Shown in pieces: positions 6,547 through 54,935 of a stretch of DNA of 64,000 nucleotides. The DNA is from Marivivens aquimaris (GTDB taxonomy: Bacteria; Pseudomonadota; Alphaproteobacteria; Rhodobacterales; Rhodobacteraceae). The notes beneath the pieces were generated by a model. It ran no database searches and was not told the origin of the DNA. It saw only the letters and a program-made list of their open reading frames with translations. A program made the position numbers and the translations under genes. Position 1 is the stretch's first letter; every line of letters starts with the position of its first letter. The DNA is taken from assembly GCF_015220045.1 (NCBI RefSeq), contig NZ_JADBGB010000001.1, positions 620,001 through 684,000 of the forward strand, written 5' to 3'.

Positions 6547-8841
6547 ATGGCTGATGGAGGAAACCAATTTGCGGATATGGCCGAGGCCGTGGCGCGCGAA
6601 CTTCTGGGCGAGCCGAACAAGCAGCTCAGCCAAGCCACCGAACTGCGGTGGGGCAAGCACGGCAGCATCTCGCTCGACCTGAAAAAGGGTACGTTCTACG
6701 ACCATCAGGAAAGCGAAGGCGGCGGTGTTCTGTGGCTGGTGGAGCGCGAGACAGGCTACACGCAGCAGGGCGGGCAGGCCGTCGAGTATCTGAGAAACAA
6801 GGGCTTCGATGTAGAGGACAGCCGTCCGCCTCGCGACTACCAGAGCAGCGGGTCATCATCGGCTGGCGGATCTGGCAAGAAAGAATACCGCACCGACAAA
6901 GACGGGAACTGGTTGCCGGATCGCGTCCCGCCTCATGCCGAGCTGACAAAGACCTACGACTACACCGATGCCAGCGGCCAGCTGATGTATCAGGTGCTGC
7001 GCTACGACTGGACCGAGGACAATGCGAAGGGTCGCGGGAAGTCATTCGTGCAGCGCCGCCCCGATACCAGCAAAAAGGGCGGCTGGGCCTATAAGACGCA
7101 GGGCATCACCCGCTTTCCCTACCGACTTCCCGAGTTGCTGGACGACATTTCGCAGGGTCGGCAGGTGTTCATCGTCGAGGGCGAAAAGAAGGTCGACATG
7201 CTGCGCGAGATCGGCGTGCCTGCGACCTGCAACGCCGGAGGCGCTGGCAAGTTCGAGGCCGAACTGGTTCAGTGGTTCAAGGGAGCCGATGCTGTCATTC
7301 TGCCCGACAACGATCCGCAGGCGACGAAGCAGAACGGCGATCTGAAATTCCACGACAACGGCGATCCGGTCTATCCGGGCAAGGATCACGCTGCGCTAGT
7401 GGCGCGCAGCATCAAGGATGTGGCGAAGCGGGTCCGCATCCTCGAAATCCCCGACCTACCGCTAAAGGGTGGCGTCGATGACTGGCTTCCTGCTGGTGGC
7501 ACGAACGAGAAGCTATACGACCTGACCGACGAAATCGCGGTCGACTTCAAAGACACGCCACCGGAGTTCCAGTCGTTCAAGTCCCGCTTCGGTGCGGTGG
7601 GATGGGCCGACTTCGATCAGCCCGGTCCGACCTATGAACACCTCATCAAAGGCGTGCTGACCGAGGGCGAGGTTTCGATGCTGCTCGGGGAAAGCCAGAG
7701 TGGCAAATCGTTCCTCGCCATCGACATTGCCATGTCGGTGGCGCGCGGCGTCCCGTTCTTCGGCCGGAAGGTCCACAAGGGCGGGGTGATCTATCAGGCA
7801 GGGGAAAGCGCGGTCGGCGTGCGCCGCCGTCGCTTTCCGGCCTACGCCACGCACCACGACTGCAAGAGCGAACCGCTCGACCTCGTGCTGCTGGAAAAGC
7901 CCGTCGACCTGTTCAACAGCGACGAGGACTGCGAGGCGTTCATCGCGGAGTGCCGCCACTGGAACAGCGTGTTCGACAACGATCTGAAGCTGATCATCAT
8001 CGACACGTTTAACAAGGCAACCCCCGGCGCGAACGAGAACGACGGCAAGGATATGGGGAACGTGCTGAAGCGCTGTGACCGCATCCGCCGTGACACTGGC
8101 GCCCACGTCATGCTGGTCCATCACCTCAATGCCGGTGGCACCAAGGCACGCGGCCACACCAGCCTATTCGGCAACGTCGAAAACGTCGTCACTGTGCGGC
8201 GCAAGTTGGACAGCAGCGACAGTGATGGTCGTCAGGTGCGCGAGTGGATCATATCCAAGCAGAAGGACGGCGAGGATGGCATCCATCAGAATTTCGTTCT
8301 GGCGGGTGTCTATCTCGGCTCTGATGCAGACGGGGATCGGATCACGTCCTGCGTCGTGCAGCCTCCGGCTGGTGCTACCATCGACCAGCCCGAAAACGAC
8401 AAGGGGATCACGGCCAGCGAGCCCGGTAAGCGCGTACTTCGTGACATGCTGCACCTGTTCGAGGAGAACGCCGTGCTGGCGCCAGCAGAGCTGAAGCTGC
8501 CGCAGGGGTCGATCGTCATCAACCGGAAAGACCTTTGGGAATATTCCAAGGCCACACACCTGACCTCGGAGGACATTACCCCGAAGGATGGGGAGGACGA
8601 GAAGCAGGCACTAGACCGCGCCACCGACACGCTCCGCAAGCAGATCAAGCGTGGCAGCGACGGACTCTACAACAAGGGTGTGATCCAGAAGCTCGACGAC
8701 TGGATCTGGTTCACAGGCAAGCGGGTCAAAGGCTTCGGGCCTCTACCGACCCACCGTGAAGATCCCGCTTACGCTCCAGCGCCAACGGAGGTCGACACCT
8801 CAGGCGATGACATGCCGTTTGATATGGGAGACTACAGATGA
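6547..8841 (+). CDS. Primase-helicase (TOPRIM + RecA-like AAA_25 domain)
   Basis: 764 residues. A TOPRIM-like segment occurs at ~205-260 (FIVEGEKK, then VILPDNDPQ). A RepA/AAA_25-type ATPase follows, with Walker A GESQSGKS near 382 and Walker B LIIIDT near 482, then MLVHHLNAGG as the sensor region. The C-terminal ~150 residues look like a winged-helix or DNA-contact region. This arrangement is the usual phage replication protein that primes and unwinds DNA. The start follows a GGTGG stretch. It overlaps the next gene by 4 bp. Confidence 0.85.
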   Translation: MADGGNQFADMAEAVARELLGEPNKQLSQATELRWGKHGSISLDLKKGTFYDHQESEGGGVLWLVERETGYTQQGGQAVEYLRNKGFDVEDSRPPRDYQSSGSSSAGGSGKKEYRTDKDGNWLPDRVPPHAELTKTYDYTDASGQLMYQVLRYDWTEDNAKGRGKSFVQRRPDTSKKGGWAYKTQGITRFPYRLPELLDDISQGRQVFIVEGEKKVDMLREIGVPATCNAGGAGKFEAELVQWFKGADAVILPDNDPQATKQNGDLKFHDNGDPVYPGKDHAALVARSIKDVAKRVRILEIPDLPLKGGVDDWLPAGGTNEKLYDLTDEIAVDFKDTPPEFQSFKSRFGAVGWADFDQPGPTYEHLIKGVLTEGEVSMLLGESQSGKSFLAIDIAMSVARGVPFFGRKVHKGGVIYQAGESAVGVRRRRFPAYATHHDCKSEPLDLVLLEKPVDLFNSDEDCEAFIAECRHWNSVFDNDLKLIIIDTFNKATPGANENDGKDMGNVLKRCDRIRRDTGAHVMLVHHLNAGGTKARGHTSLFGNVENVVTVRRKLDSSDSDGRQVREWIISKQKDGEDGIHQNFVLAGVYLGSDADGDRITSCVVQPPAGATIDQPENDKGITASEPGKRVLRDMLHLFEENAVLAPAELKLPQGSIVINRKDLWEYSKATHLTSEDITPKDGEDEKQALDRATDTLRKQIKRGSDGLYNKGVIQKLDDWIWFTGKRVKGFGPLPTHREDPAYAPAPTEVDTSGDDMPFDMGDYR

Positions 8842-9323
8842 GCGTCTGGACGATTAAGGTCGTCGAAGAAACCATTGTCGACGCCCTGCGCTACGCCAGC
8901 CGCCATGCCGGTCGAGTAGGTCCGCAGGGCATCAAATCGGGCGCGCTGCCGTTCGTGATCGGTTCTGTCGAAGAGTACATCGAAATCTGGGGGGAAATCC
9001 CCGAACGGGCGGGTGACGATGATGGTGATGAAATGCCTGTGGAGTACCTGCCGCCGTATCGCGTGACGCTCTACACGGAGGCGCTGCAATGGCAGTGTCG
9101 GTATCTGCCGGAGAAGGCGAGCCCGACCGAAATGCGGGTGTTCGCTGCCCATCTTGCGGCAGCGCTGCGAGGCACCCCCACGGATAAAGCTGCTCGCAGG
9201 CTGAACCTGACACGCCCCCGATTTTACCAGCTCAAGGACCGCGCCGCGGGCCGCATCGCGGTCGGGCTGATGCGCGATCGGATTGGATCAAACGGACTGC
9301 CGGAGGACGAGGACGATGAGTGA
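8838..9323 (+). CDS. Phage protein with C-terminal HTH-like region (DUF6362-like)
   Basis: 161 residues. The N-terminus (MSVWTIKVVEETIVDALRYA) and a C-terminal helical block with AARRLNLTRPRFYQLKDRAA resemble DUF6362-type phage proteins, whose end looks like a helix-turn-helix. The middle is acidic. It is coupled to the primase-helicase (ATGA). It could be a replication-linked regulator; family assignment is tentative. Confidence 0.5.
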   Translation: MSVWTIKVVEETIVDALRYASRHAGRVGPQGIKSGALPFVIGSVEEYIEIWGEIPERAGDDDGDEMPVEYLPPYRVTLYTEALQWQCRYLPEKASPTEMRVFAAHLAAALRGTPTDKAARRLNLTRPRFYQLKDRAAGRIAVGLMRDRIGSNGLPEDEDDE

Positions 9324-9567
9324 CGAGGTGAACGCCAAGCCGACCCTGAGGGAGATGTCCGAGCTGGTCACAAACCTCCACATCAGCGCGACCAGGCAGA
9401 TGTATGACGGACGGGAACCGAAAGAGATTTTCGTCAGGCTGGAGCCGCGTCAGGCGCGGGTGCTGGAGGGCATCTTCGGCCTGCTCGAACTGTGCATCGA
9501 GCATCGCGCCTTGGACTATCTGAGCAAGATGGCGAAGAAGGCGCGGCTGGAGCGCGAAAGGCGCTGA
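9316..9567 (+). CDS. Hypothetical phage protein, 83 aa
   Basis: Start at ATG 9316, overlapping the previous stop by 8 bp. Helical, charged protein; residues 45-75 form an amphipathic helix rich in Arg/Glu/Leu, and the last 15 residues are strongly basic. No family recognised. It closes the first replication sub-operon, and two operator-like sites and a hairpin follow. Confidence 0.55.
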   Translation: MSDEVNAKPTLREMSELVTNLHISATRQMYDGREPKEIFVRLEPRQARVLEGIFGLLELCIEHRALDYLSKMAKKARLERERR

Positions 9568-9617
9568 TGTTGGATAATTTCCAACAGTAGGTGTTGCAGA
9601 ATTGGAAAATCTCCTAT
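9568..9617. promoter_or_regulatory. Tandem operator-like sites before the SSB operon
   Basis: TGTTGGATAATTTCCAACA at 9568-9586 is a 19-bp palindrome with one mismatched pair. AATTGGAAAATCTCCTAT at 9600-9617 is a weaker second copy. The pair resembles the two sites upstream of the DUF932 gene. They lie where a second rightward promoter for the SSB genes would be. Confidence 0.6.
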
Positions 9618-9624
9618 AAGGAAA

Positions 9625-9648
9625 AAGGGCGGACTTCGGTTCGCCCTT
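9625..9648 (+). terminator. Hairpin with T-rich tail
   Basis: AAGGGCGGA pairs with TTCGCCCTT (one G-T pair) around CTTCGG, followed by GTTTGTTGTT. It ends the first replication sub-operon or attenuates the next one. Confidence 0.6.
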
Positions 9649-9669
9649 GTTTGTTGTTGGAGATGAAAG

Positions 9670-9804
9670 ATGGCGCACCGTACTGCCAGCCCTCAGATCG
9701 CGACCCACACGGGAACCCCCGACGATCAATCGACGAACCACCTTAAAATCATGAACGAAATGACGGCCAGCACCGCGCTGTGCCGGACGGAGACCTACGC
9801 GTAA
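9670..9804 (+). CDS. Small ORF upstream of ssb, 44 aa
   Basis: ATG at 9670 with TTGGAGATGAAAG directly upstream; its TAA overlaps the ssb ATG (TAATG). The product is Thr/Ala-rich and starts [12 protein letters not shown]. No family recognised. The good ribosome site and stop-start coupling suggest it drives ssb translation; it may be a leader peptide or a real small protein. Confidence 0.5.
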
Positions 9805-10319
9805 TGGCCGGATCGGTAAACAAAGTCATCCTGATCGGGAACCTCGGGAGAGACCCTGAGGTTCGCAATTTCAACAACGGCGGGAAGGTTGTGAACCTCC
9901 GCATCGCGACCTCGGAAAATTGGAAAGACCGCAACACGGGCGAGCGCCGTGAGCGCACCGAATGGCACTCGGTCGCCATCTTTAACGAAGCGTTGGGCCG
10001 CATAGCAGAGCAGTTCCTCCGCAAAGGCTCGACGGTCTACGTCGAAGGCCAGTTGGAGACCCGCAAGTGGCAGGACCAGTCGGGTCAGGACCGCTACACC
10101 ACCGAAGTCGTTCTTCGCCCATTCAGCGGCAACCTAACCATGCTGGGCGGTCGCGGTGATGGCGGGCAGGGCGGCAACTCCGGCGGTGGATATGGCGGCG
10201 GCAACTCCGGTGGCAACTCAGGCGGTGGCTACGGAAACAGCGGCAACTCGGGCGGATCGGGTGGCGGCGGTTACAGCGGTGGCTCCTCCAACGAAATCGA
10301 CGACGAAATTCCGTTCTGA
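9804..10319 (+). CDS. ssb: Single-stranded DNA-binding protein
   Basis: 171 residues. The OB-fold domain occupies 1-~110, beginning [19 protein letters not shown] and including [11 protein letters not shown] and [14 protein letters not shown] Gly/Ser/Asn-rich linker spans ~118-163. The acidic tip DDEIPF recruits partner proteins. It coats single-stranded DNA during phage replication and recombination. The start is fixed by homology and TAATG coupling. It overlaps the downstream helicase by one base. Confidence 0.97.
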
Positions 10320-11461: not shown

Positions 11462-11749
11462 ATGCTCCAATCCTCCCCACCAAAACACAGGGTCATCGAG
11501 TTCACCGCAGCGGAAATGGCAGCGATCCGGCTGGTGTCCAAGCCCTACAAAATCGCGGCCCATCAACTCGGCATCAGCGAGGCAGCATTCAAGCTCCGCA
11601 TCAAGAATGCCCGCGCCAAATGCGGCGCAGCATCGGCGGTCGATCTGGCCGTCATCGCAACCCGCTCCGGCATCCTCATCGACCTGCCCGACAACATGCT
11701 GGCGATGCGGTGCAAACAGAAAACCAAGGCGAAAAGGAAGTCCAAATGA
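11462..11749 (+). CDS. LuxR/GerE-like HTH protein, 95 aa
   Basis: Residues ~14-70 follow the GerE helix-turn-helix pattern: FTAAEMAAIRLVSKPYKIAA, then HQLGISEAAFKLRIKNARA and AVDLAVIATRSGIL. There is no receiver or ligand domain, only a lone DNA-binding unit with a basic tail (KQKTKAKRKSK). It lies between the helicase and a ParB-like gene, overlapping the latter by 4 bp. It is likely a phage transcription regulator. Confidence 0.65.
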   Translation: MLQSSPPKHRVIEFTAAEMAAIRLVSKPYKIAAHQLGISEAAFKLRIKNARAKCGAASAVDLAVIATRSGILIDLPDNMLAMRCKQKTKAKRKSK

Positions 11750-13557
11750 ACGCCATTGTTCAAACACCTCTGGGTCGGCTCACGCTGTCACCCATCAATC
11801 CGCGCCAGACCGCCGCAGAGGACGGCATTGCCACGCTGGCAGCGTCCATCAAGGTCTGCGGCCTGATCCAGTCGCTCGGCGGCTATAAGCCCGCCGATGC
11901 GGCTGAGGACGAGCCTGTGCAGATCGTGGCCGGTGGTCGCCGGCTACGCGCTCTGCAAAGCCTGGTCGAGAGCGGCGACTACACCGACGCCATTCTGGTG
12001 CCGGTCATGATCACGGACGACGAGGCCACGGCGCGCCAGTGGTCCATCGCGGAAAACGAAATCCGCGAGGGCGTCGACCTCGCCCATCAGGTCCGCGCCT
12101 ATCAACGGCAGTACGAGCTGACCCCCAATATCGAGGCCATCGCGGAGGCGTTTGGCGTATCGAAGCGGAAGGTGAAGCAGCGGCTCAAGTTGGCCGACCT
12201 CGGGGACATGGCACTGACCGCGTGGGCCGAGGGAAAGATCGACGATGAAACCGCTGGAGCGCTCACTTTGTGTGAGGCAGGGGAGCGTCAGGACGAGCTC
12301 GTGACCGGCCTTCTGAACAAAGACTTCAATGGTTGGGAGCTTCGTCGCAAAATCACGAACCAGAGCATCGACGGCACCGAACGCATCGGAAAGCTGGTGC
12401 TGGAACAGTACCGAGCGCGCGGCGGCGCTGAGACGGCCGACCTGTTCAGTGATGAAATTTGGCTCCACGACACCGAGCTTGCCTTCGATATTGCGAAGGA
12501 AATTCTGGTGGCGAAGGCGGACGAACTTCTGGCTGAAGGTTGGGCCAGCGTCGAGGTCGCATCCCTCGAAGTCTCTAGCCGGTGGCAACTACAAGACGGC
12601 ACCATTTTCGTCCGAGGTGATACATCGCCCCTCACCGAAGAGGAGCAGGACGAGCTCGCGAGCCTCAAAGCCGCCGTCGCTGAAAATGACGGTCCTATCT
12701 CCGATGAAATTCGGGAAATGACGAACCAGATTTGGAAGCTCGAAAATAAGCCTCCGGCGTACAGCGATGAGCTGAAGTCGCAGACGAACGCCACGATCTA
12801 CATAGGCTATAAGGGCGTCGAACTGTACCCGTGGGTCGCGCCCAAAGGCGGCGGCGAAACTATCTCCCAGAGCAGCGCAGCGACACAGGAACAGGCCGCC
12901 GGTCCTGTCTACTCTCAGGCGGTGGTAAATGACCTCCGCGCAGTGCGCCTCGCAGCGATGCAGCACGCGTTGATGAAGAACCCGAACCTCGGCTTGGAAC
13001 TGCTCGCGCTCCTGATCGGCGGCGACACATACGGTGCAGCTGTCACCATTAACAGCCAGACCAACACGCCTAGCACCAAGGATGACGGATGGGTCCAGCC
13101 CGATATTAAACGCAGCCTCGACAGCGCTTCGCATCGGCTCAAGGACAAGGTCGCGGCCTTCACCGAGAACAACACGCAAGAACGCCACATCGAGCTACTG
13201 CTGTCGGCCCTGCTGCCCGCGCTGCAATACGCCCTCTGTCACACCTTGGGGGAGACGGAGGAGCGTCAGAAGCTCTGGAACCTCTACGGGCGTCAGGCGG
13301 GGATGAACCTGCGCGAGTTCTGGACCCCGACCGACACCAATTTCTTCAAACGGATCACCGCCGACCAGCTCCACGGGATCTGGTCCGAACTGGTCGGGTG
13401 CAAGCCCGGAGAGCCGAAGCAGCTCGCCTTCGAGAGCCAGAAGAAGGGCGCGAAGGTGAAGCAGCTTCACGCGCTGTTCCACGACGAAGCCACCCGCAAA
13501 AACCTCACCAAAGCGCAGCTCAAGCGCGTCGAAGCATGGGAGCCTGAAATTGTCTGA
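11746..13557 (+). CDS. Large ParB-like protein, 603 aa
   Basis: Start at ATG 11746 (ATGA overlap with the previous gene). Residues ~10-100 have the ParB/Srx-like fold: NPRQ, then IKVCGLIQSL and IVAGGRRLRAL. A KorB-type helix-turn-helix follows at ~127-160 (IEAIAEAFGVSKRKVKQRL). The remaining ~430 residues are helical and unlike chromosomal ParB. No ParA is nearby, so it is not a partition system; in phages such proteins are DNA-binding or CTP-dependent accessory factors of unknown use. Confidence 0.8.
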   Translation: MNAIVQTPLGRLTLSPINPRQTAAEDGIATLAASIKVCGLIQSLGGYKPADAAEDEPVQIVAGGRRLRALQSLVESGDYTDAILVPVMITDDEATARQWSIAENEIREGVDLAHQVRAYQRQYELTPNIEAIAEAFGVSKRKVKQRLKLADLGDMALTAWAEGKIDDETAGALTLCEAGERQDELVTGLLNKDFNGWELRRKITNQSIDGTERIGKLVLEQYRARGGAETADLFSDEIWLHDTELAFDIAKEILVAKADELLAEGWASVEVASLEVSSRWQLQDGTIFVRGDTSPLTEEEQDELASLKAAVAENDGPISDEIREMTNQIWKLENKPPAYSDELKSQTNATIYIGYKGVELYPWVAPKGGGETISQSSAATQEQAAGPVYSQAVVNDLRAVRLAAMQHALMKNPNLGLELLALLIGGDTYGAAVTINSQTNTPSTKDDGWVQPDIKRSLDSASHRLKDKVAAFTENNTQERHIELLLSALLPALQYALCHTLGETEERQKLWNLYGRQAGMNLREFWTPTDTNFFKRITADQLHGIWSELVGCKPGEPKQLAFESQKKGAKVKQLHALFHDEATRKNLTKAQLKRVEAWEPEIV

Positions 13558-17540: not shown

Positions 17541-18500
17541 ATGGCTGAGAACAGCAATATCGAATGGACCGACCACACGTTCAACCCGTGGATCGGTTGC
17601 CAGAAAGTCGGGCCGGGCTGCGACAACTGCTATGCTGAAACGTGGGACGCGCGGGGCTTGCAGCAGAGCGAAAGCCGCTGGGGGCCACATGCGATCCGCA
17701 CCCGTACCAGCGCCGCGAATTGGCGTAAGCCGCTGGCGTGGGACCGTGCCGCCGCCGCTGAAGGCATCCGCAAGCGCGTGTTCTGCGCCAGCTTGGCCGA
17801 CGTGTTCGACAACCATCCGTCAATCCAGCAGGAGTGGCGGGACGACCTATGGGCGCTGATCGAGGCGACCCCGCACCTCGACTGGATGCTGCTGACCAAG
17901 CGCCCGTCGAATATCGCCAACATGCTGCCCGTGCCGTTTGACTTCGATAAGCAATATCCGAACGTCTGGCTGGGCTGCACCGTGGTCAATCAGGCAGAGG
18001 CTGACCGCGATATTCCCAAGCTGCTGGCCGTGGATGCGGCGGTGCGGTTCTTGTCGATGGAGCCGCTGCAAGGGCCGGTGGATTTGACGCAATCGGTGCG
18101 TGGCATCCTGCGTTACCCCGAATACGTGAACATCAAGCTGCAATTGGTGATCGTCGGCGGAGAGAGCGGCCCAAAAGCCCGTCCGATGCACCCTGATTGG
18201 GTGCGCGGCCTGCGCGACCAGTGCAGCAAGTACCATGTCGCGTTCCACTTCAAGCAGTGGGGGGAGTGGGGTCCGTGTGACCACATGGGCGACGAAATCG
18301 ATGGCGCGCCCTTCGGGTGCTTCAATGATGCAGGGGAATGGTGCGGCAAGGTCAGCGAGGATTTTGCTAACGCTGGCCGTCAGATCATGTTCCGCGTCGG
18401 AAAGAAGGCCGCTGGCCGGACGCTCGACGGCAGGACGTGGGATGAAACGCCCACCCATCTCTCCACATCTGAGGCCGAACTGTTGGGTGACGAAAAATGA
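17541..18500 (+). CDS. DUF5131 family protein (phage Gp37/Gp68)
   Basis: 319 residues from ATG 17541. The N-terminus reads IEWTDHTFNPWIGC and contains the family's Cys motif GCQKVGPGCDNCYAE (C-x6-C-x2-C, ~19-29), suggestive of an iron-sulfur cluster as in radical-SAM-like proteins. Downstream blocks FCASLADVF, WMLLTKRP, WLGCTV and VIVGGESG are typical of the family. Biochemical activity is not established to my knowledge. Widespread in phages beside nucleic-acid genes. Overlaps the next gene by 4 bp. Confidence 0.85.
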   Translation: MAENSNIEWTDHTFNPWIGCQKVGPGCDNCYAETWDARGLQQSESRWGPHAIRTRTSAANWRKPLAWDRAAAAEGIRKRVFCASLADVFDNHPSIQQEWRDDLWALIEATPHLDWMLLTKRPSNIANMLPVPFDFDKQYPNVWLGCTVVNQAEADRDIPKLLAVDAAVRFLSMEPLQGPVDLTQSVRGILRYPEYVNIKLQLVIVGGESGPKARPMHPDWVRGLRDQCSKYHVAFHFKQWGEWGPCDHMGDEIDGAPFGCFNDAGEWCGKVSEDFANAGRQIMFRVGKKAAGRTLDGRTWDETPTHLSTSEAELLGDEK

Positions 18501-24498: not shown

Positions 24499-25362
24499 AT
24501 GACCGCCAAAACTGGTGGCGTAGCGGTGCGCCTTCGCGACTTTCGCGAACTCCAACCGTACAAGAATAACGCTCGCATCCACTCGGCAGAGGGGATCGAG
24601 CAGCTGGCCGCGATCATGCAGGACGTGGGCTACACCAACCCGATCCTCGTCGACGGAGACCTGATCGTCGGAGGCCACAAGCGCCTAAAGGCCGTGACCT
24701 CGATCTACGCCAGTGGTGGCCGGCTGCGTCTCCCCGATGGAACGGAGCTGCCGCAGGACACGGTCCCGACGATTGACTGCTCCGGCTGGACCGAGGGCCA
24801 GCGCCGCGCCTACATCATCGCGGACAATCAGACCACGATGGACAGCGAGTGGGACTTGGACCTACTCAAGATCGAACTGGACTGGCTGAAGGATGTGGAA
24901 GGCATCGACCTTTCGCTCACCGGCTTTACCGATGCCTCGCTGGAAAGTGCGCTGACCGCGTTCATCGCGGATGACAAAGAGCAGAACAGCAAGCGCGCGA
25001 ACTACTCGCGCAAAATCAAGGTGCCGACCTACGAGCCGAGCGATGTTGCTCCGGCACTGGGGGAACTATTCAATCGACAGAAGTCGGATGAGCTGCTGGC
25101 CGAGATTGAGGCCAGCGATGCGCCGGATGACGTAAAGCAGTTCCTGCGGTTTGCCGCCGAGCGGCACACCGAGTTCAACTATGCCAAGGTCGCAGACTTC
25201 TACGCCGCGGCTGATGCTCCGATCCAGCGGCTCATGGAGAACTCGGCGCTGGTGATCATTGACTTCGATCGAGCCATTGAGAACGGCTTCGTAAAGATGA
25301 CTAAGGCGTTCACCGAAATGACGGGTGAGCGGTTCGATCCGGAGGCCGAAGATGCGGGATGA
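24499..25362 (+). CDS. ParB-domain protein paired with glycosyltransferase
   Basis: 287 residues. Residues ~8-105 are a ParB/Srx-like domain: PYKNNARIHSAEGIEQLA, then YTNPILVDGDLIVGGHKRLK and IADNQ. The C-terminal ~110 residues include EIEASDAPDDVKQFLRFAAE, FNYAKVADFYAAAD and LVIIDFDRAIENGFVK, a block I associate with phage proteins encoded beside DNA-modifying glycosyltransferases. No methyltransferase motif follows, unlike many phage ParB fusions. It overlaps the glycosyltransferase by 11 bp, so the two are one translational unit. Role in targeting or licensing base modification is inferred. Confidence 0.7.
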   Translation: MTAKTGGVAVRLRDFRELQPYKNNARIHSAEGIEQLAAIMQDVGYTNPILVDGDLIVGGHKRLKAVTSIYASGGRLRLPDGTELPQDTVPTIDCSGWTEGQRRAYIIADNQTTMDSEWDLDLLKIELDWLKDVEGIDLSLTGFTDASLESALTAFIADDKEQNSKRANYSRKIKVPTYEPSDVAPALGELFNRQKSDELLAEIEASDAPDDVKQFLRFAAERHTEFNYAKVADFYAAADAPIQRLMENSALVIIDFDRAIENGFVKMTKAFTEMTGERFDPEAEDAG

Positions 25363-26209
25363 CTTCTGCGCCTTCATCCTCTCGAACAGGCGCGCCAATA
25401 CCGTTCTGACGTACCGTGCGGTTCGTCGCTGCGGGTATAGGGGGAAAGTCTTTGTCGTGATCGACGACGAGGATCCGACCGCCGACGACTACTTCGCCAA
25501 ATTTGGTGACGACGTGCTGGTGTTCCCCAAGTCGGAGATCGAAAAGACCTTCGACCTGGCAGACAACTTCACGAACCAGAAGGGCAGCATCATCCACGCC
25601 AGAAACGCCTGCTTCCACCTCGCGAGGGAGCAGGGCTATCGCTACTTCATCGAGCTCGACGACGACTACAACGGTTTCTGGACGCGGTTCGACGCGAACC
25701 ATTACCACGGCTCGTGGAGGATACCGGACCTTGATCTGGTCTGGAGCGAGATGGTCGAGTTCCTAGAGACCACGCCAGCGATCTGCGTCGCCATGGGGCA
25801 GGGTGGCGACTACGTCGGAGGTGCCGAAGGCACGCTGATGAAGTCCATCATGTCGAAGCGGAAGGCGATGAACACGCTGATCTGTGACGTCGAGAAGCCG
25901 TTCACCTTTGTGGGCCGGATCAATGAGGACGTGAACACATACGTTCGGGCTGGCATCAAGGGGGAACTGATGCTGTCTGTTCTCAACGTGCATGTCACCC
26001 AGCGCCAGACACAGGCTGCGTCAGGCGGGATGACTGAAATCTATCAAGATGGGGGAACGTACATCAAATCGTTCTACACGGTGATGATGTGTCCGTCCTG
26101 CGTCAAAATCTCTGACTTCGGTAGTGCCCAGCGTCGGATTCACCATCTGATCGACTGGGAAAAAGCAGCGGTGAAGATCGTATCCGATCAACACCGCAAG
26201 CCTGATTAG
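25352..26209 (+). CDS. TAGT-like glycosyltransferase (DNA base modification candidate)
   Basis: 285 residues from ATG 25352, with CGGAGGCCGAAG upstream. The pattern is that of GT-A-type enzymes described as TET/JBP-associated or GREB1-related: FILSNRRANTVLTYRAVRRC, VFVVIDDEDPT, ARNACFHLAREQGYRYFIEL, then the acidic metal/nucleotide-sugar motif LDDDY and VGRINEDVNTYVR. The family is thought to glycosylate hydroxymethylpyrimidines in phage DNA. No TET/JBP, hydroxymethylase or nucleotide-sugar gene is visible in this window, so the acceptor is unknown. Confidence 0.7.
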   Translation: MRDDFCAFILSNRRANTVLTYRAVRRCGYRGKVFVVIDDEDPTADDYFAKFGDDVLVFPKSEIEKTFDLADNFTNQKGSIIHARNACFHLAREQGYRYFIELDDDYNGFWTRFDANHYHGSWRIPDLDLVWSEMVEFLETTPAICVAMGQGGDYVGGAEGTLMKSIMSKRKAMNTLICDVEKPFTFVGRINEDVNTYVRAGIKGELMLSVLNVHVTQRQTQAASGGMTEIYQDGGTYIKSFYTVMMCPSCVKISDFGSAQRRIHHLIDWEKAAVKIVSDQHRKPD

Positions 26210-26227: not shown

Positions 26228-26938
26228 TTATGCGGCCTCCACTGCGATGAAGTTGTTGCGGCGATCCCAAGCGATGTTCGACTTGGCGTCCTGCTTGGTG
26301 AAGCCTTCCTTTTCGCAAGCTGCGATGAAGTCTCCGACCGACTTGTTCTCTTGATAGAGGGCGAAAATCTTGGCCGCCTTCGACCCTTCCTTTTTCGGAT
26401 TCGGAATAACCGAGGTGATCACCATATCCTCGGTGATCCGGATGCGATCGGTTTTGCCTTCGGCCTTCGGCTTCGGTTCCTTCTTTGCCTTGGCGGGTTT
26501 CGCTTCCGGCTCCGGTATCACCTTCGCCAGATCGTCCAGCTTCGACTTGGACTTCTTCGCGACCTTCTTCGCGAATACGTCCACACCCTCGGCTGCGGCC
26601 TCGGTGTCTGCGACGACCTGCTCGCGAATTTCTTTAGCCTTCGGGTTGGCGCGAAGGCGGGCGAGGCCGGGGGATACCGTCTCTGCCTTTTCCTTCATGA
26701 CGCGCTCCTCCATCGCTTCCTCTGCGCGGGCGGTGGCGACGATCTGGAGCGCGTCCTCCACGTTCGTGGCTGCCATGATCGCGTCGTAGACCTTGGCTTG
26801 GCGCTCGGCTTTGAAGTTCGCGTACACTGCTTTGCAAACGCGCATCTCAGCCATGTCCTTGGTGCGTGCGGGCTTGGCATCCGACTTGGTGATGTAGCCG
26901 GTTACTTCTGCGAGGTTCTTTACTGTGAGGGTGGTCAT
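26228..26938 (-). CDS. Basic leftward phage protein, 236 aa
   Basis: Start at ATG 26938 with TTGGAGAAGCAG upstream. The N-terminal ~90 residues are helical; ~105-180 is Lys/Ala/Pro-rich (KKVAKKSKSKLDDL, KPAKAKKEPKPK), histone-H1-like. The end has PKKEGSKAAKIFALYQENKS and FIAACEKEGFTKQDAKSNIA, WDRR-, a small domain that recurs at C-termini of phage DNA-associated proteins. It lies on the opposite strand between the glycosyltransferase and terminase genes. A 19-bp operator is upstream and a hairpin overlaps its stop. Confidence 0.65.
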   Translation of the reverse strand: MTTLTVKNLAEVTGYITKSDAKPARTKDMAEMRVCKAVYANFKAERQAKVYDAIMAATNVEDALQIVATARAEEAMEERVMKEKAETVSPGLARLRANPKAKEIREQVVADTEAAAEGVDVFAKKVAKKSKSKLDDLAKVIPEPEAKPAKAKKEPKPKAEGKTDRIRITEDMVITSVIPNPKKEGSKAAKIFALYQENKSVGDFIAACEKEGFTKQDAKSNIAWDRRNNFIAVEAA

Positions 26939-27205: not shown

Positions 27206-27697
27206 ATGAGCAACGAGCAACTGATTCCAGTCGAGGTCGCGGCCAAGCTCCTCGAAATCAGCGCCGAGCGGCTGCGCCAGCTCAGGAAAGAGGGATACGT
27301 CGAGTTCCCCGAACGCGGCAAAACCACGCTGGTGTCTGCGGTGCGGGGATACATCCGGTTCCTCAAGGACGCCGCCGCGAAAGAGACGAAGACCTCGGCC
27401 AGCGCCAGAACGCAGGACGTTAAGACGAGGCTGCTCGAAATGCAGCTTCAGGAGAAAGAGCGCGAGCTGATCCCACAACAGGATGCACAGCTCGCGATGC
27501 AGCTGCTGGTCGGCAGCGTGAGTACCGTTATGGACACCCTGCCAGCGCGCATTACTCGCGACATGGAGCTGCGGGTGAAGGTTGAGGATGAAGTCCGTAA
27601 AGCGAAAGCCCAAATCTCCGAAGCTGTCGGCCGATTGTCAGGCGCTGTTGCAGATGGCAGCGACATTGATGAGGCCGGCTCCAAAGCTCGAACCTGA
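27206..27697 (+). CDS. Terminase small subunit (Nu1-like)
   Basis: 163 residues from ATG 27206 (GTGGGATTTT upstream); earlier in-frame starts would run through the promoter region. The N-terminus has a winged-helix Nu1-like motif: LIPVEVAAKLLEISAERLRQ, LRKEGYVEFPERGK, VSAVRGYIRFLKD. A helical segment with coiled-coil character follows (TRLLEMQLQEKERELIP). It recognises the packaging start and delivers DNA to the large subunit. Overlaps the large subunit gene by ~110 bp. Confidence 0.8.
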   Translation: MSNEQLIPVEVAAKLLEISAERLRQLRKEGYVEFPERGKTTLVSAVRGYIRFLKDAAAKETKTSASARTQDVKTRLLEMQLQEKERELIPQQDAQLAMQLLVGSVSTVMDTLPARITRDMELRVKVEDEVRKAKAQISEAVGRLSGAVADGSDIDEAGSKART

Positions 27698-29672
27698 CGA
27701 GTGGGGCGCTGCGAACCGGACCTATCCCCCGACCTCGGGCGTGCCTGGTCCGCGCGATCCGGGCCTCACCCCGTACATGACGCCCTTCTCGCGTGCTGTT
27801 GCCTCGCGCCTATATCCCCGAGTGGTCAACGTCACCGCCGCGCAGTCTGGCAAAACCGAGACCCTGCTCGATGTAATGGGGTCGCGCCTCGATCAGCAGC
27901 CCGTTCCCATCATCTACGTTGGACCGAGCCGCGACTTCGTAAAGGATATGTTCGAGCCGCGCGTGTCCGCGCTATTCGATGAAGCGCCTGACCTTGGAGC
28001 GAAGCTGCTGCGAGGGCAGGCCGACACCAAGTACGTCAAGATCGTCAGCGGCGTTAAGCTCCGTCTCGCCTATGCCGGTTCGACCACCTCCCTGAAATCG
28101 GACCCGTTCGGCCTCGGCCTGATCGACGAATACGACGAAATGAGCGCCAACGTGCGCGGGCAGGGCGATCCTCTCGGCCTGACCGAAGCGCGCGGCGACA
28201 CCTACGCCGATACCGTCACGGCTGTCATTTCGACGCCATCGCAGGGCCGTGTTGATACTGAGGTCTGCCCAATCACGGGTCTGATCTACTGGACCAAATC
28301 CGACGAGGAGATGGTCAGCAGCCCGATCTGGCGCCTGTTCGATGGCGGCACGCGTCACCACTGGGCGTGGAAGTGCCCTCACTGTGAACGGCGCTTCATT
28401 CCGCGGTCGGACCTGCTCCAGATCGCAAAGGGAGCCACGCCGACACAGGCCAAGCGGGACGCCTTCCTGATCTGCGGCCACGAGGATTGCGGCGAGCCGA
28501 TCCTCGAACACCACAAGACAGCGATGAATGCCACGGGCATCGCCATCGCACCGGGCCAGACCGTCGAAGAGGCTGAGCGCGGTGTGCATGTCGAGTCCGA
28601 TACGTGGTCTATGTGGACCTCGGGCCTTTGCTCCCCGTTCAAGACATTCGGGGAACGAGCGCAGCGCCTCGTTCGGGCTCGCCTCAGCGGCGACCCGAAC
28701 AAGGTCCAGACCGTAATGAACAGCCAATTTGGCGAGATCGCCATGCCGGTTGGTGACAGCCAAACACCCGCTTGGGAAGCGATCATGAAGCGCGTCTTGC
28801 CATATCGAGAGGGTGAATTTCCGGCCGAGGCGATCCGCCTGTTCGCTGCTGTCGACGTCCAGAAGCACTCGCTGCCGTTCGTCATTCGGGCCTTTGGCGA
28901 GAAGGGCAAATCGTGGCTGGTGCGGCACGGCGAGCTGTTCGGTCCTACCGACCAGCCTGAGGTCTGGGATGACCTATTCGCGCTGATGACTGGCGAGACC
29001 TACGGCGACGGCATGGCGGTGGAACACTGTTTCATCGACTCCGGCTTCCGACCAGACAAGCCAGACGGCGTGAACGTCCACGCGGTCTACGAGTTCTGCC
29101 GCCGGATGCCCTATCTGTTCACCCCGACCAAGGGTAAAGATGTGCAGTCCAAGCCCTTCACGATGTCGACGATCGACGTGAAGCCCGACGGCACGAAGCG
29201 CCTGTTTTCGATCCGCCTTGCTATCCTTCACACCGACTATTTCAAGTCGCTGGTGTTTGCTCGGATCGCGCTCGAACCGAACACGCCGGGGGCTTGGCAC
29301 GTCCACTCCGATATTGATGAGGACTACTGCCGTCAGGTCACATCGGAGGAGCGTGCCGTCGTCGACGGTAAACCGAAATGGACCCGCCGCAGCCGCAACA
29401 ACCACTTCCTCGACTGTGAGGCCATGGTCGAGGCTTGCGCCTTCTCGCGTGGCGTCAGCCGTCTGCCCTCTGGGCGACGTGAGGATGACTACGACGATGA
29501 GGAGGCGGCACCGCCACGCCCGCAGGGCGGGGCGTTGTCGGAGCGCGCCAGAGCGCGCGCCCCTGCTCACGAAACTGAACCAGATCCCGTTGAGGAGGAA
29601 CGCCCTCGTCGGCGGGACCGAGGCTCGACCAAGGACCGCTTTGCGCAGCGGGGACGACGCCTCCGCCAATAA
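27588..29672 (+). CDS. Terminase large subunit (lambda gpA family)
   Basis: About 694 residues from ATG 27588; TTG 27582 and ATG 27654 are alternatives. gpA-type features: NVTAAQSGKTETLLDVMG (ATPase loop, ~85-95), LGLIDEYDEM (Walker B, ~178), TAVISTPS, a CPHC...CGHEDC zinc-type insertion (~265-300), and nuclease acidic residues (AAVDVQKHSLP near 425, FIDSG near 482). The gpA type usually makes cohesive ends, so cos packaging is expected. The C-terminal ~60 residues are Arg/Pro-rich. Confidence 0.92.
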   Translation: MKSVKRKPKSPKLSADCQALLQMAATLMRPAPKLEPDEWGAANRTYPPTSGVPGPRDPGLTPYMTPFSRAVASRLYPRVVNVTAAQSGKTETLLDVMGSRLDQQPVPIIYVGPSRDFVKDMFEPRVSALFDEAPDLGAKLLRGQADTKYVKIVSGVKLRLAYAGSTTSLKSDPFGLGLIDEYDEMSANVRGQGDPLGLTEARGDTYADTVTAVISTPSQGRVDTEVCPITGLIYWTKSDEEMVSSPIWRLFDGGTRHHWAWKCPHCERRFIPRSDLLQIAKGATPTQAKRDAFLICGHEDCGEPILEHHKTAMNATGIAIAPGQTVEEAERGVHVESDTWSMWTSGLCSPFKTFGERAQRLVRARLSGDPNKVQTVMNSQFGEIAMPVGDSQTPAWEAIMKRVLPYREGEFPAEAIRLFAAVDVQKHSLPFVIRAFGEKGKSWLVRHGELFGPTDQPEVWDDLFALMTGETYGDGMAVEHCFIDSGFRPDKPDGVNVHAVYEFCRRMPYLFTPTKGKDVQSKPFTMSTIDVKPDGTKRLFSIRLAILHTDYFKSLVFARIALEPNTPGAWHVHSDIDEDYCRQVTSEERAVVDGKPKWTRRSRNNHFLDCEAMVEACAFSRGVSRLPSGRREDDYDDEEAAPPRPQGGALSERARARAPAHETEPDPVEEERPRRRDRGSTKDRFAQRGRRLRQ

Positions 29673-51946: not shown

Positions 51947-53281
51947 TCAGCGATACGCGCCGCATGTGAACAGTCCGGTAGGAACATTTGTGCCCGAGGC
52001 AGAGAACGAACCCACGGGGAGGTCATCCCATCTTCCGTCCGGCAATTTGCCGTGGTCGTAGTGCGCCGTGGCTGGCAGCACCGAAACCAGCCTGCCGGAT
52101 GGTTTGAGGAACTTTCGGGCGTGGGCCAAGTGTTTGAGGTAGTGCTGACCATAGAACGGGGGATTCATCAGCACGAAGTCGTAGATCGGGTCGGGGTGAA
52201 CCTTCAGGAAATTGGCGACCTGAACCGCATAGCCCTTCTGGCGGCACACCATCGCCCGCGCCTCGAAATACTCGATGCCGTCGACGATCACCTCGCAGGA
52301 CCGCATCCGGGTTTCCTTCTGCATCGCGAGAAAGCTGTGCAGCGCGTCGATCAGGTGGCCCTCGCCGCAGCTCGGTTCGAGTAGGCGCACCGTTCCTTGG
52401 TGTGGCAGGTCTAGACGAGACACGGCTTTCATGGCGGCCTCCTGAGGTGTCCAGTAGAATTGCAGGTCCGTGGAGACTTCGCGCGAGCCTTCTGGTTTCA
52501 TCCCCTCCGGTGCAGGGGCGTCCGGCAGCACTTGGCCGTAATACTCGGCCAGCGCCTCATTGATCTGACGCTGGGCGGTGCGGTCGAAGAGGATGTGCAT
52601 ATTCCCGTTTTTGAATCCGCGACATGTGCAGCCGAATATCACCGCTTCCTCGTCTGATTTTGCAAGCGCCAACAGCGCGGCCTTTTCCTTGTACTCCAGC
52701 TTTGGCTGATCGTTCAGGCGCGCCATCGCGTCGATAACGTTCCAGAACTGACCCGCGCGCCAACGGTCCTCGACATAGGCAGTGCACGCGCCGGAAATCA
52801 CCATCCGTTTCGGCAATCCCTTCACCCCGATCGCCACCTTGCTGTGAGACTTGTAGGCCGGATCGAGGTCGGTGAATGCCTCGGCTACACCGCGCAGCAT
52901 CTGAGCCCGCTCGTTGATGAGGAAGTCACCGAACAGCTCGACGATCTTTTCCTTCGTGAACTCGGGCGGGTTTTCGAGCATCCGGTCGAACTTGTCTTTG
53001 TCCTTGGCGGTGCAGCGGTCCCAGATTTTCAGATACGACATGGTGTACCGCCAAGCCGAAAGCAGCAGGGCGGCATTGGCTTGGCGCGCCTCGTATTGCG
53101 AGAGGAGGCTTGCTGCCGTCCAACTCCCTGACTGTCCGCTGACCTGCACCGCCTCGTTCATCCGCTTGGCGGCTGCGTTGTAGGTGTCGAACTCCTCGGA
53201 TAACGCCAGCAACTTGGCGTCGTACTCCGCGACAATCTCTGAGGGCATTTTCTGGGGCGCAGGGACGCTATGTTGGTTCAT
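51947..53281 (-). CDS. DUF4942 DNA N6-adenine methyltransferase
   Basis: 444 residues. DUF4942 region in the middle (~150-245: SKVAIGVKGLPKRMVISGAC, WRAGQFWNVIDAMARL), then a class I methyltransferase: motif I VRLLEPSCGEGHLIDAL (~302-318), motif IV LMNPPFYG (~380-387). DUF4942 fusions are phage/plasmid orphan methylases. Leftward, with ACGGAGACCAGA before ATG. A terminator-like hairpin sits 20-50 bp upstream of its start. Likely protects phage DNA or alters expression; specificity is unknown. Confidence 0.85.
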   Translation of the reverse strand: MNQHSVPAPQKMPSEIVAEYDAKLLALSEEFDTYNAAAKRMNEAVQVSGQSGSWTAASLLSQYEARQANAALLLSAWRYTMSYLKIWDRCTAKDKDKFDRMLENPPEFTKEKIVELFGDFLINERAQMLRGVAEAFTDLDPAYKSHSKVAIGVKGLPKRMVISGACTAYVEDRWRAGQFWNVIDAMARLNDQPKLEYKEKAALLALAKSDEEAVIFGCTCRGFKNGNMHILFDRTAQRQINEALAEYYGQVLPDAPAPEGMKPEGSREVSTDLQFYWTPQEAAMKAVSRLDLPHQGTVRLLEPSCGEGHLIDALHSFLAMQKETRMRSCEVIVDGIEYFEARAMVCRQKGYAVQVANFLKVHPDPIYDFVLMNPPFYGQHYLKHLAHARKFLKPSGRLVSVLPATAHYDHGKLPDGRWDDLPVGSFSASGTNVPTGLFTCGAYR

Positions 53282-53807: not shown

Positions 53808-54935
53808 TTACTGAGGCGCGATCACATCCAGCCAGGGCCAGTCCGCCCATTTGTCCCCGATGGCGCGGAGGTGGCTATATCGCTGGAGCGATTGCCACGA
53901 CTTGTGACCCGTCACCATGGCGATCTGCGGCACCGTTCTCCCCATCTCGGCCAGACGTGAGGCGCACTCGTGTCGTAGGGAGTGGAAAACCAGCTCTTCG
54001 TCATCCCCAAGGCCCAGCGCCTTCTTCGCGCGGGTGAACCGCGCCGACATGCTCTCCGTGTTGAAAGGGAATATGCGCTCGTCGTCACGCGGCATAGCGG
54101 CGATGATGCGCTGCGCCTCGGGTAGCAGCTCACACCACACGTCGTTGCCGAGCTTCTGGCCGGGATGTTTCATGTCTCGGACCAAAACCCGATCACCATC
54201 AAGGTCGGACCACCTGATGCGGCAAATCTCGTCGATGCGCCGCGCGCTGAATAGCCCGAACGCGGCCAGCTTCGACATTGGCGCCGACTGGGGATAGGCT
54301 CTCTCGCTGGCGTGGAAATGGTTCATGAACAGATCCATTTCCTCGACCGTGATCCGGCGCTCACGGGTGCCGCTCTTGCCGACCAGTTTCAGCGACTTCG
54401 CGGCCTCCATTCCATCCTGAAACTGGTTGCGGTCGAACTCGAAACCCCACGCGGATCGCGACACGCGGATCACGGCCCCGAGGTGGCTCAGGTAATTCTG
54501 GACCGTCTGTGGTGATCTCATTTCGCCGTGCTTGTAGTTCCGGTCCAGCTTCACGCCGTCTCCGTTCCGCAGGGATCGAGCCAAAGACACGACCTGCTGA
54601 CTGTTGAAGTCGCCCGCGGGCATGTCGGCCACGGGTAGGGTGCGAAGCGTCCGCAACACCTGCGCCTTGGTGTCACCCATCTGGCCGGTCATGAACTCGG
54701 TGTAGAGGTCGATCGCCTCTCCAATGGTGCGACCCCCAGACTTGGACCGCGCCGCGCTCAGCCCCTCGTCGGTCGCCGTTTCCTTTTCGAGCTTCTTTAT
54801 CCACCGCTTTGCCATGGCCTTCGAATTGAATGTCTGGCTTTTCCGAAAGACGATCCTGCCACCTTTCTTTCGCGTAACCTGAGCGGTATAGCTAACCGAC
54901 CCGTCAGCACGGGTCCGTTCCATGATATTTCCCAT
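53808..54935 (-). CDS. Tyrosine-family integrase (dusA-site phage)
   Basis: 375 residues from ATG 54935. Catalytic set: Arg in SARRIDEI (~R233), HSLRHE (His318, Arg321), GHKSW (His344) and Tyr353 in RYSHL. An N-terminal arm-binding domain (~1-60) and core-binding domain (~70-180, with GEAIDLYTEFMTGQMGDTK and VQNYLSHLGAVIRVS) precede. The frame extends upstream of the ATG only through non-coding DNA. It reads away from dusA at the phage edge, the usual integrase placement. Confidence 0.93.
   Translation of the reverse strand: MGNIMERTRADGSVSYTAQVTRKKGGRIVFRKSQTFNSKAMAKRWIKKLEKETATDEGLSAARSKSGGRTIGEAIDLYTEFMTGQMGDTKAQVLRTLRTLPVADMPAGDFNSQQVVSLARSLRNGDGVKLDRNYKHGEMRSPQTVQNYLSHLGAVIRVSRSAWGFEFDRNQFQDGMEAAKSLKLVGKSGTRERRITVEEMDLFMNHFHASERAYPQSAPMSKLAAFGLFSARRIDEICRIRWSDLDGDRVLVRDMKHPGQKLGNDVWCELLPEAQRIIAAMPRDDERIFPFNTESMSARFTRAKKALGLGDDEELVFHSLRHECASRLAEMGRTVPQIAMVTGHKSWQSLQRYSHLRAIGDKWADWPWLDVIAPQ

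Follow-up and report, generated by a model that had tools for sequence, protein, structure and literature searches.

Two overlapping genes upstream of a prophage terminase

The DNA analyzed here (64,000 nucleotides of Marivivens aquimaris, hereafter the window) contains a prophage adjoining a dus gene. Within it, a gene for a protein with a ParB-like domain and a C-terminal tail (ORF1) overlaps a gene for a TAGT-family glycosyltransferase (ORF2), and the following features were located.

24499-25362, plus strand: ORF1, ParB-like domain and tail, 287 aa
24499-24975, plus strand: N-terminal part of ORF1 (residues 1-159), ParB-like domain; matches to phrog_620 and phrog_498
24976-25362, plus strand: tail of ORF1 (residues 160-287), the constant partner of the TAGT; from invariant residues, AlphaFold2 and adjacency
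25341-25345, plus strand: GGAGG within the 3' end of ORF1, likely ribosome-binding site of ORF2; from the sequence
25352-26209, plus strand: ORF2, TAGT-family glycosyltransferase, 285 aa; PF20691 and phrog_842
26228-26938, minus strand: ORF between the module and the terminase, outside the module; without family match in Pfam or PHROGs
27206-27697 (start approximate), plus strand: terminase small subunit TerS; phrog_57 (2.3e-15)
27669-29672, plus strand: terminase large subunit TerL, GpA type; PF20454 (3.2e-47), PF05876 (1.3e-39) and phrog_15 (3.6e-148)
53808-54935, minus strand: integrase
from 55107: Dus gene

The sequence-only reading of this DNA had proposed two genes overlapping by 11 bp just before the terminase, and both were found in the sequence where it placed them, with the overlap at 25352-25362. 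The open frame of ORF2 spans 25325-26209 (294 aa), and its likely start is the ATG at 25352, which has the GGAGG 6 nt upstream. The position relative to the terminase holds in that TerS and TerL lie downstream, but TerS begins about 1 kb past ORF2 and the opposite-strand ORF intervenes. The order ORF1, ORF2, TerS and TerL, all on the plus strand, is nevertheless that of the ParB-Tls loci discussed below, interrupted by this single ORF.

ORF1 matched the ParB-like family phrog_620 over the whole protein (3e-47), and its residues 13-163 matched the ParB part of phrog_498, a family labeled DNA methyltransferase (1.6e-37); no Pfam match was obtained at E<=1. A role of ORF1 as a chromosome or plasmid partition ParB, for which ParB_N together with HTH_ParB would be expected, was considered and rejected on these Pfam results. 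HTH_ParB had no Pfam match in ORF1, whereas it did match, under the cut-off, a second, plasmid-type ParB of 603 aa that is encoded apart from the module (window 11746-13557) and whose ParB_N and HTH_ParB scores both fall just below the Pfam cut-offs.

ORF2 matched the Pfam TAGT family PF20691 with 106.9 bits (cut-off 27.5; 1.7e-30) over residues 17-234 of the 294-aa frame, as well as phrog_842 (1.3e-70), labeled beta-glucosyl-HMC-alpha-glucosyltransferase. The score, far above the curated cut-off, identifies the enzyme as a TAGT and not as a glycosyltransferase of the surface-polysaccharide type. The LDDDY sequence noted earlier is present at residues 102-106, and we take it to be the metal/donor motif of a GT-A type enzyme; D104, D105 and D193 are among the invariant TAGT residues (alignment, n=87).

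Elsewhere in the window, another phage gene (14329-14988) encodes a phrog_799 DNA methyltransferase (2.3e-44), a methyltransferase-like protein with DUF4942 and MTS domains is encoded near the integrase (51947-53248), and a DUF5131 protein with a CxxGCxNCYA-like cysteine motif is encoded 6 kb upstream of the module (17541-18500).

The tail of ORF1 is the constant partner of the TAGT

Alignments confirmed that ORF1 carries a conserved tail of about 105 residues beginning at about residue 165. For the first alignment, seven gene pairs were used, that of the window and those of phages infecting E. coli, Nocardia, Haloarcula, Vibrio and two species of Lactobacillus. In a set of 94 sequences the residues Y169, P176, Y178, L216, R222, Y235, D255 and G263 were invariant (94/94), and H223 and E247 are conserved as well. 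Mean pairwise identity was 45% for the tail and 45% for the TAGT (103 non-redundant loci), and 32% for the ParB domain (88 loci). AlphaFold2 predicted the tail to be small and all-helical (mean pLDDT 83.2, pTM 0.59), with blocks of 93-98 pLDDT over tail residues 21-90; the model had no significant structural match in the PDB and, accordingly, the tail does not appear to resemble a known hydroxylase.

When loci were searched from the TAGT, the tail was encoded directly upstream in 78 of the 80 best viral loci, the exceptions being L044 and L066, which lies at a contig start, and in all 36 TAGT loci taken from bacterial genomes, which span many phyla, the L189 one being truncated. After removal of near-copies at 90% TAGT identity and of loci with less than 400 bp upstream, the tail adjoined the TAGT in 41 of 42 viral loci (from the best 80 in scans limited to 600 stretches, so that viral linkage is measured on closer relatives) and in 31 of 31 genome loci. 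Searching from the tail, a TAGT was present in 80 of the 80 best loci, and within 200 bp in 73 of them (55/61 without near-copies and short upstream regions); the remaining seven had other DNA between tail and TAGT, amounting to one gene in six cases. In a phage collection, the 28 records with a tail were all among the 38 with a TAGT, as compared by eye. The two genes overlap by 1-41 bp in 182 of 195 tail-bearing loci (near-copies included, and taking as TAGT start the ATG nearest the profile start), which indicates that the 11-bp overlap of the window is no local accident. Viruses whose hosts range widely across bacteria and archaea retain the gene pair as a unit. Even at 22-27% TAGT identity, a Porphyromonas phage retains a divergent ParB, the tail and the terminase, but the tail was found in no ORF of the Vibrio phage 1.076 locus (6 kb on each side), where the TAGT is present, and in no ORF of L044, where the TAGT precedes the terminase.

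Among the 105 non-redundant loci whose upstream sequence reaches 1.1 kb or more, 96 gave a ParB hit within the ORF that encodes the tail, in agreement with the claim that the ParB-like partner is conserved. Since this partner is conserved and ORF2 matches the TAGT profile, the result that the sequence-only reading had named as speaking against it, a surface-polysaccharide glycosyltransferase with no conserved ParB partner, is not what was found. Its account of the partner, ParB fold plus a conserved tail, needs adjusting in that some loci lack ParB and it is the tail, rather than the ParB domain, that constantly accompanies the TAGT. Judged from these alignments, the tail appears to outweigh the ParB domain in importance.

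Tail-only forms, selection and loss

In six of the 105 non-redundant loci (L110, L133, L150, L174, L175 and L192), a short ORF encodes only the tail, and two more tail-only loci are L143, with a shorter upstream region, and Vibrio phage pv27 (L006). The other loci among the nine without a ParB hit are L092, with a divergent ParB, L189, with ParB in another frame just upstream, and L044, without a tail. The divergent ParB domains of L092 and L093 were missed by the first profile and recognized in a looser test. In L092, an amidoligase gene (PF12224; L092:6291-7205) directly follows the TAGT.

In the tail-only loci L110, L143 and L192, the gene next after the module is sliding-clamp-like (DNA polymerase III beta-like), with Pfam clamp scores of 23.4, 36.1 and 20.2 bits, respectively, against a cut-off of 24.4, exceeded only in L143; in L006 and L175 a helicase gene occupies this place. 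Tail-only forms are scattered in the TAGT tree, in which 29 of 101 inner branches are starred: on starred branches, L192 groups with the ParB-bearing L127, L175 with the ParB-bearing L157, and the tail-only L133, L150 and L174 with one another. One E. coli strain has an annotation that marks the ParB part as incomplete, beside a separate tail ORF and a TAGT that are both open.

The E. coli genes named ynaK and 'GREB1-related protein' by PGAP constitute the same module, which presumably resides in the Rac prophage. Of 5426 E. coli genomes, 885 contained at least 80% of the module. Median dN/dS among closely similar copies of its E. coli type was 0.135 for ParB, 0.097 for the tail and 0.066 for the TAGT (34 loci, mostly IMG/VR contigs; pairs with dS of 0.1-1.5), values that indicate purifying selection in these relatives and hence a module in use. 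In E. coli C600 the match covers no more than the initial 254 bp of the module, and in Lactobacillus phage Ld25A an internal deletion removed the tail and most of the TAGT, leaving the start of ParB and the end of the TAGT joined in a small ORF (L009:90-515). The module is therefore useful rather than essential.

A slot shared with ParB-methyltransferases

A downstream region long enough to hold a TerL gene within 3 kb was available in 92 non-redundant loci; with queries drawn from seven phages, together with what these matched, TerL was detected there in 68 loci and not detected in 24. The small and large terminase subunits downstream of the module are of several dissimilar kinds. In relatives of the host, the same slot before a GpA-type terminase is occupied by phrog_498 ParB-methyltransferases, which have a related ParB-like domain and a methyltransferase in place of the tail and TAGT of this module. 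Matches to phrog_498 were found in 134 of 147 host-related genomes, many through the methyltransferase part alone; among 20 hand-picked loci, one per genome, taken from the top hits that include the ParB part, a terminase lay downstream within the stretch fetched in 15. In two loci checked, a C5-methylase gene lies between the ParB-methyltransferase and the terminase. The window holds tail and TAGT where phages of related hosts have ParB-methyltransferases.

PMC6536676 describes 36 ParB-methyltransferases in the Paracoccus virome, all upstream of terminase genes. It cites Iyer et al. 2013 for the name "ParB-Tls locus" and restates the proposal that ParB directs modification during packaging. 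Such loci consist, as this one probably does, of a ParB-like protein, a DNA-modifying gene and then TerL, but the Paracoccus modifiers described there are methyltransferases, many of them fused to ParB, whereas the module of the window has a separate TAGT and a dedicated tail. According to the same source, ParB-Tls loci with DNA-modifying genes before the terminase were described in 2013, so that the module cannot be regarded as new in kind. The phage carboxymethyltransferase CmoX is, according to PMC12783734, likewise accompanied by ParB-domain proteins.

Sugar donors and the acceptor base

Of the 80 ORFs called in the window, 26 were profiled with Pfam, and none of these proved to be a nucleotide-sugar gene, in line with the suggested host-supplied donor; that suggestion does not extend to some relatives, which have donor genes beside the TAGT and in which the donor need not be host-made. 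A UDP-galactopyranose mutase adjoins the TAGT in L197 (361.6 bits, equivalog cut-off 303.75), GalE follows the second of two TAGTs in L081 (317.5, equivalog cut-off 262.3), NDP-sugar epimerase/dehydratase-like proteins are encoded beside the TAGT in L096 and L183, and a glycerol-3-phosphate cytidylyltransferase-like protein, below its equivalog cut-off, in L079. A fusion of histidine phosphatase and cytidylyltransferase lies between tail and TAGT in L100, L113, L116, L118, L124 and L161 (checked with Pfam in L100 and L118). Radical-SAM genes directly follow the TAGT in L004, L089, L176, L179, L185 and L186, with a split one in L081, and in L162 a TAGT-methyltransferase domain fusion (8427-10250) lies 3 kb downstream of ParB and tail. 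Loci with these donor or tailoring genes fall on different branches of the TAGT tree, and in the majority of the 198 loci inspected such genes are lacking beside the TAGT; in 192 loci, the genes downstream of the TAGT sorted into 56 clusters, of which the larger identified ones are terminase genes. The donor genes, as read from profile matches, would point to nucleotide-sugar chemistry with varying sugars.

Enzymes that could prepare an acceptor base were searched in the 38 module-bearing phage records (7 named and 31 from IMG/VR, chosen by length, the latter possibly fragments). Tet_JBP was found in 0/38, in a search without positive control, and a TET/JBP search across the whole host genome also gave none, the control genomes giving no match either. 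The thymidylate-synthase family (PF00303) was found in 1/38, Vibrio pv27, and matched 9 of 14 control genomes, and C5-methylase genes were found in 2/38. No thymidylate-synthase-like hydroxymethylase appeared among the 26 of 80 window ORFs profiled, and Lactobacillus phage c5 (31.8 kb) carries no annotation that would fit a base-preparing enzyme, though much of it is unannotated. The earlier observation that no hydroxylase is visible with the module agrees with these results, the TET/JBP absence being weak in view of the silent controls. Because no acceptor-making enzyme was found, either an unrecognized enzyme prepares the base or the sugar is placed directly onto a canonical one; the acceptor base is perhaps canonical. 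No published nucleoside analysis was found for any phage that carries this module.

A candidate module for DNA hypermodification

Taken together, these results suggest that the gene pair is a module for DNA hypermodification, similar in kind to ParB-Tls loci, that puts a sugar on phage DNA, a reading to which we assign a probability of about 65%. DNA as acceptor, late expression, a physical complex and an anti-restriction role are what we infer for it. Both genes would be translated as one unit in the packaging operon, probably late, and the TAGT would take the sugar from a nucleotide-sugar, host-made here as far as seen and phage-made in some relatives, and place it on phage DNA bases shortly before packaging. 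The tail of ORF1 would bind the TAGT and/or present the base, and the ParB-like domain, which appears dispensable, would load the complex onto DNA. With modification timed just before packaging, virion DNA would be marked and that of the dormant prophage would not, the likely benefit being resistance to the nucleases of the next host. Against this reading speak the failure to find an enzyme that would supply a hydroxyl acceptor, the reported action of the eukaryotic relative GREB1 on protein, the loci in which no TerL was detected within 3 kb or, as in L044, no tail, and the broken or mostly missing module of Ld25A and C600.

Three other explanations bear on this reading. Prophages commonly carry serotype-converting glycosyltransferases, and ORF2 could be an ordinary surface-polysaccharide enzyme of that sort lying near the terminase by chance; this is highly implausible, since both its full-length TAGT match and the tail partner conserved in 41/42 and 31/31 loci contradict it. 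It is improbable, though less so, that the sugar goes onto a protein, which might be a host factor, a component of the capsid or the terminase itself. The location before terminase and head genes would then be explained, and GREB1, a eukaryotic relative of the TAGT, is reported to glycosylate a protein. Against a protein acceptor speak, however, the ParB-like domain, the DNA-methyltransferase slot and the adjacency of tail-only forms to sliding-clamp-like or helicase genes, and the dissimilar terminase subunits downstream make a shared protein target less likely.

The remaining alternative concerns the base, which an enzyme of phage or host, invisible to the present profiles, may first hydroxylate or prepare in another way, a hidden first step as in T-even or TET/JBP pathways. 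The characterized TAGT does act on already glucosylated hydroxymethylcytosine, according to PMC13216743 and PMC13390438, and the radical-SAM genes right after the TAGT could be the preparing step in some phages. We nevertheless consider this rather unlikely, because the TAGT has no shared additional gene beside it (the 56 downstream clusters), Tet_JBP and thymidylate-synthase-like genes were found in 0/38 (without positive control) and 1/38 records, and phage c5, largely unannotated, has no annotated candidate. A more specific form of the DNA-modification reading, which we advance tentatively and hold less likely than not, is that tail and TAGT represent a minimal, hydroxylase-independent DNA glycosylation in which the sugar goes directly onto a canonical base. 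The helical tail would activate the enzyme or present the unmodified base; interchangeable clamps would bring the pair to DNA, of ParB type before packaging and, where phages have the tail only, a sliding clamp of replication; and a swap of one adjacent gene would change the sugar (UDP-galactofuranose, CDP-linked polyol, epimerized sugars, radical-SAM or methyl decoration). If it is true that no hydroxyl handle is needed, this would be a new DNA-modification chemistry.

Relation to known TAGTs

Neither orphan TAGTs nor the idea of ParB-Tls loci is new. The TAGTs of phages T2 and T6 act on DNA, according to PMC13216743 and PMC13390438; that of T6 belongs to the same Pfam family, PF20691, and has a GT-A fold as modeled in the former. 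It differs from the module of the window in that it works alongside an alpha-GT and attaches a second glucose to hydroxymethylcytosine that already bears one, and none of the 28 tail-bearing phage records is from a T-even phage. Solitary TAGTs, like this one without alpha-GT or beta-GT, were reported in 288 of 753 phage genomes (PMC13216743), so that such orphans make up a large part of phage TAGTs. The main text of that source makes no mention of ParB, and the partner, the overlap, the slot and the donor genes are described here. In a literature search that did not cover Iyer et al. 2013, the likeliest source, no published description of the tail as TAGT partner, of ParB-free forms or of donor genes was found. 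A large group of orphan phage TAGTs can thereby be linked to a partner domain that is constant, to a defined place in the genome and to named donor genes. The base and sugar used by solitary TAGTs become directly testable, including through the abundant E. coli version.

Two TAGT genes behind a single tail were observed in L172, L186, L188, L117, L129 and L081, the last with the split radical-SAM gene between its two TAGTs. Such paired TAGTs could perhaps add two sugars in succession.
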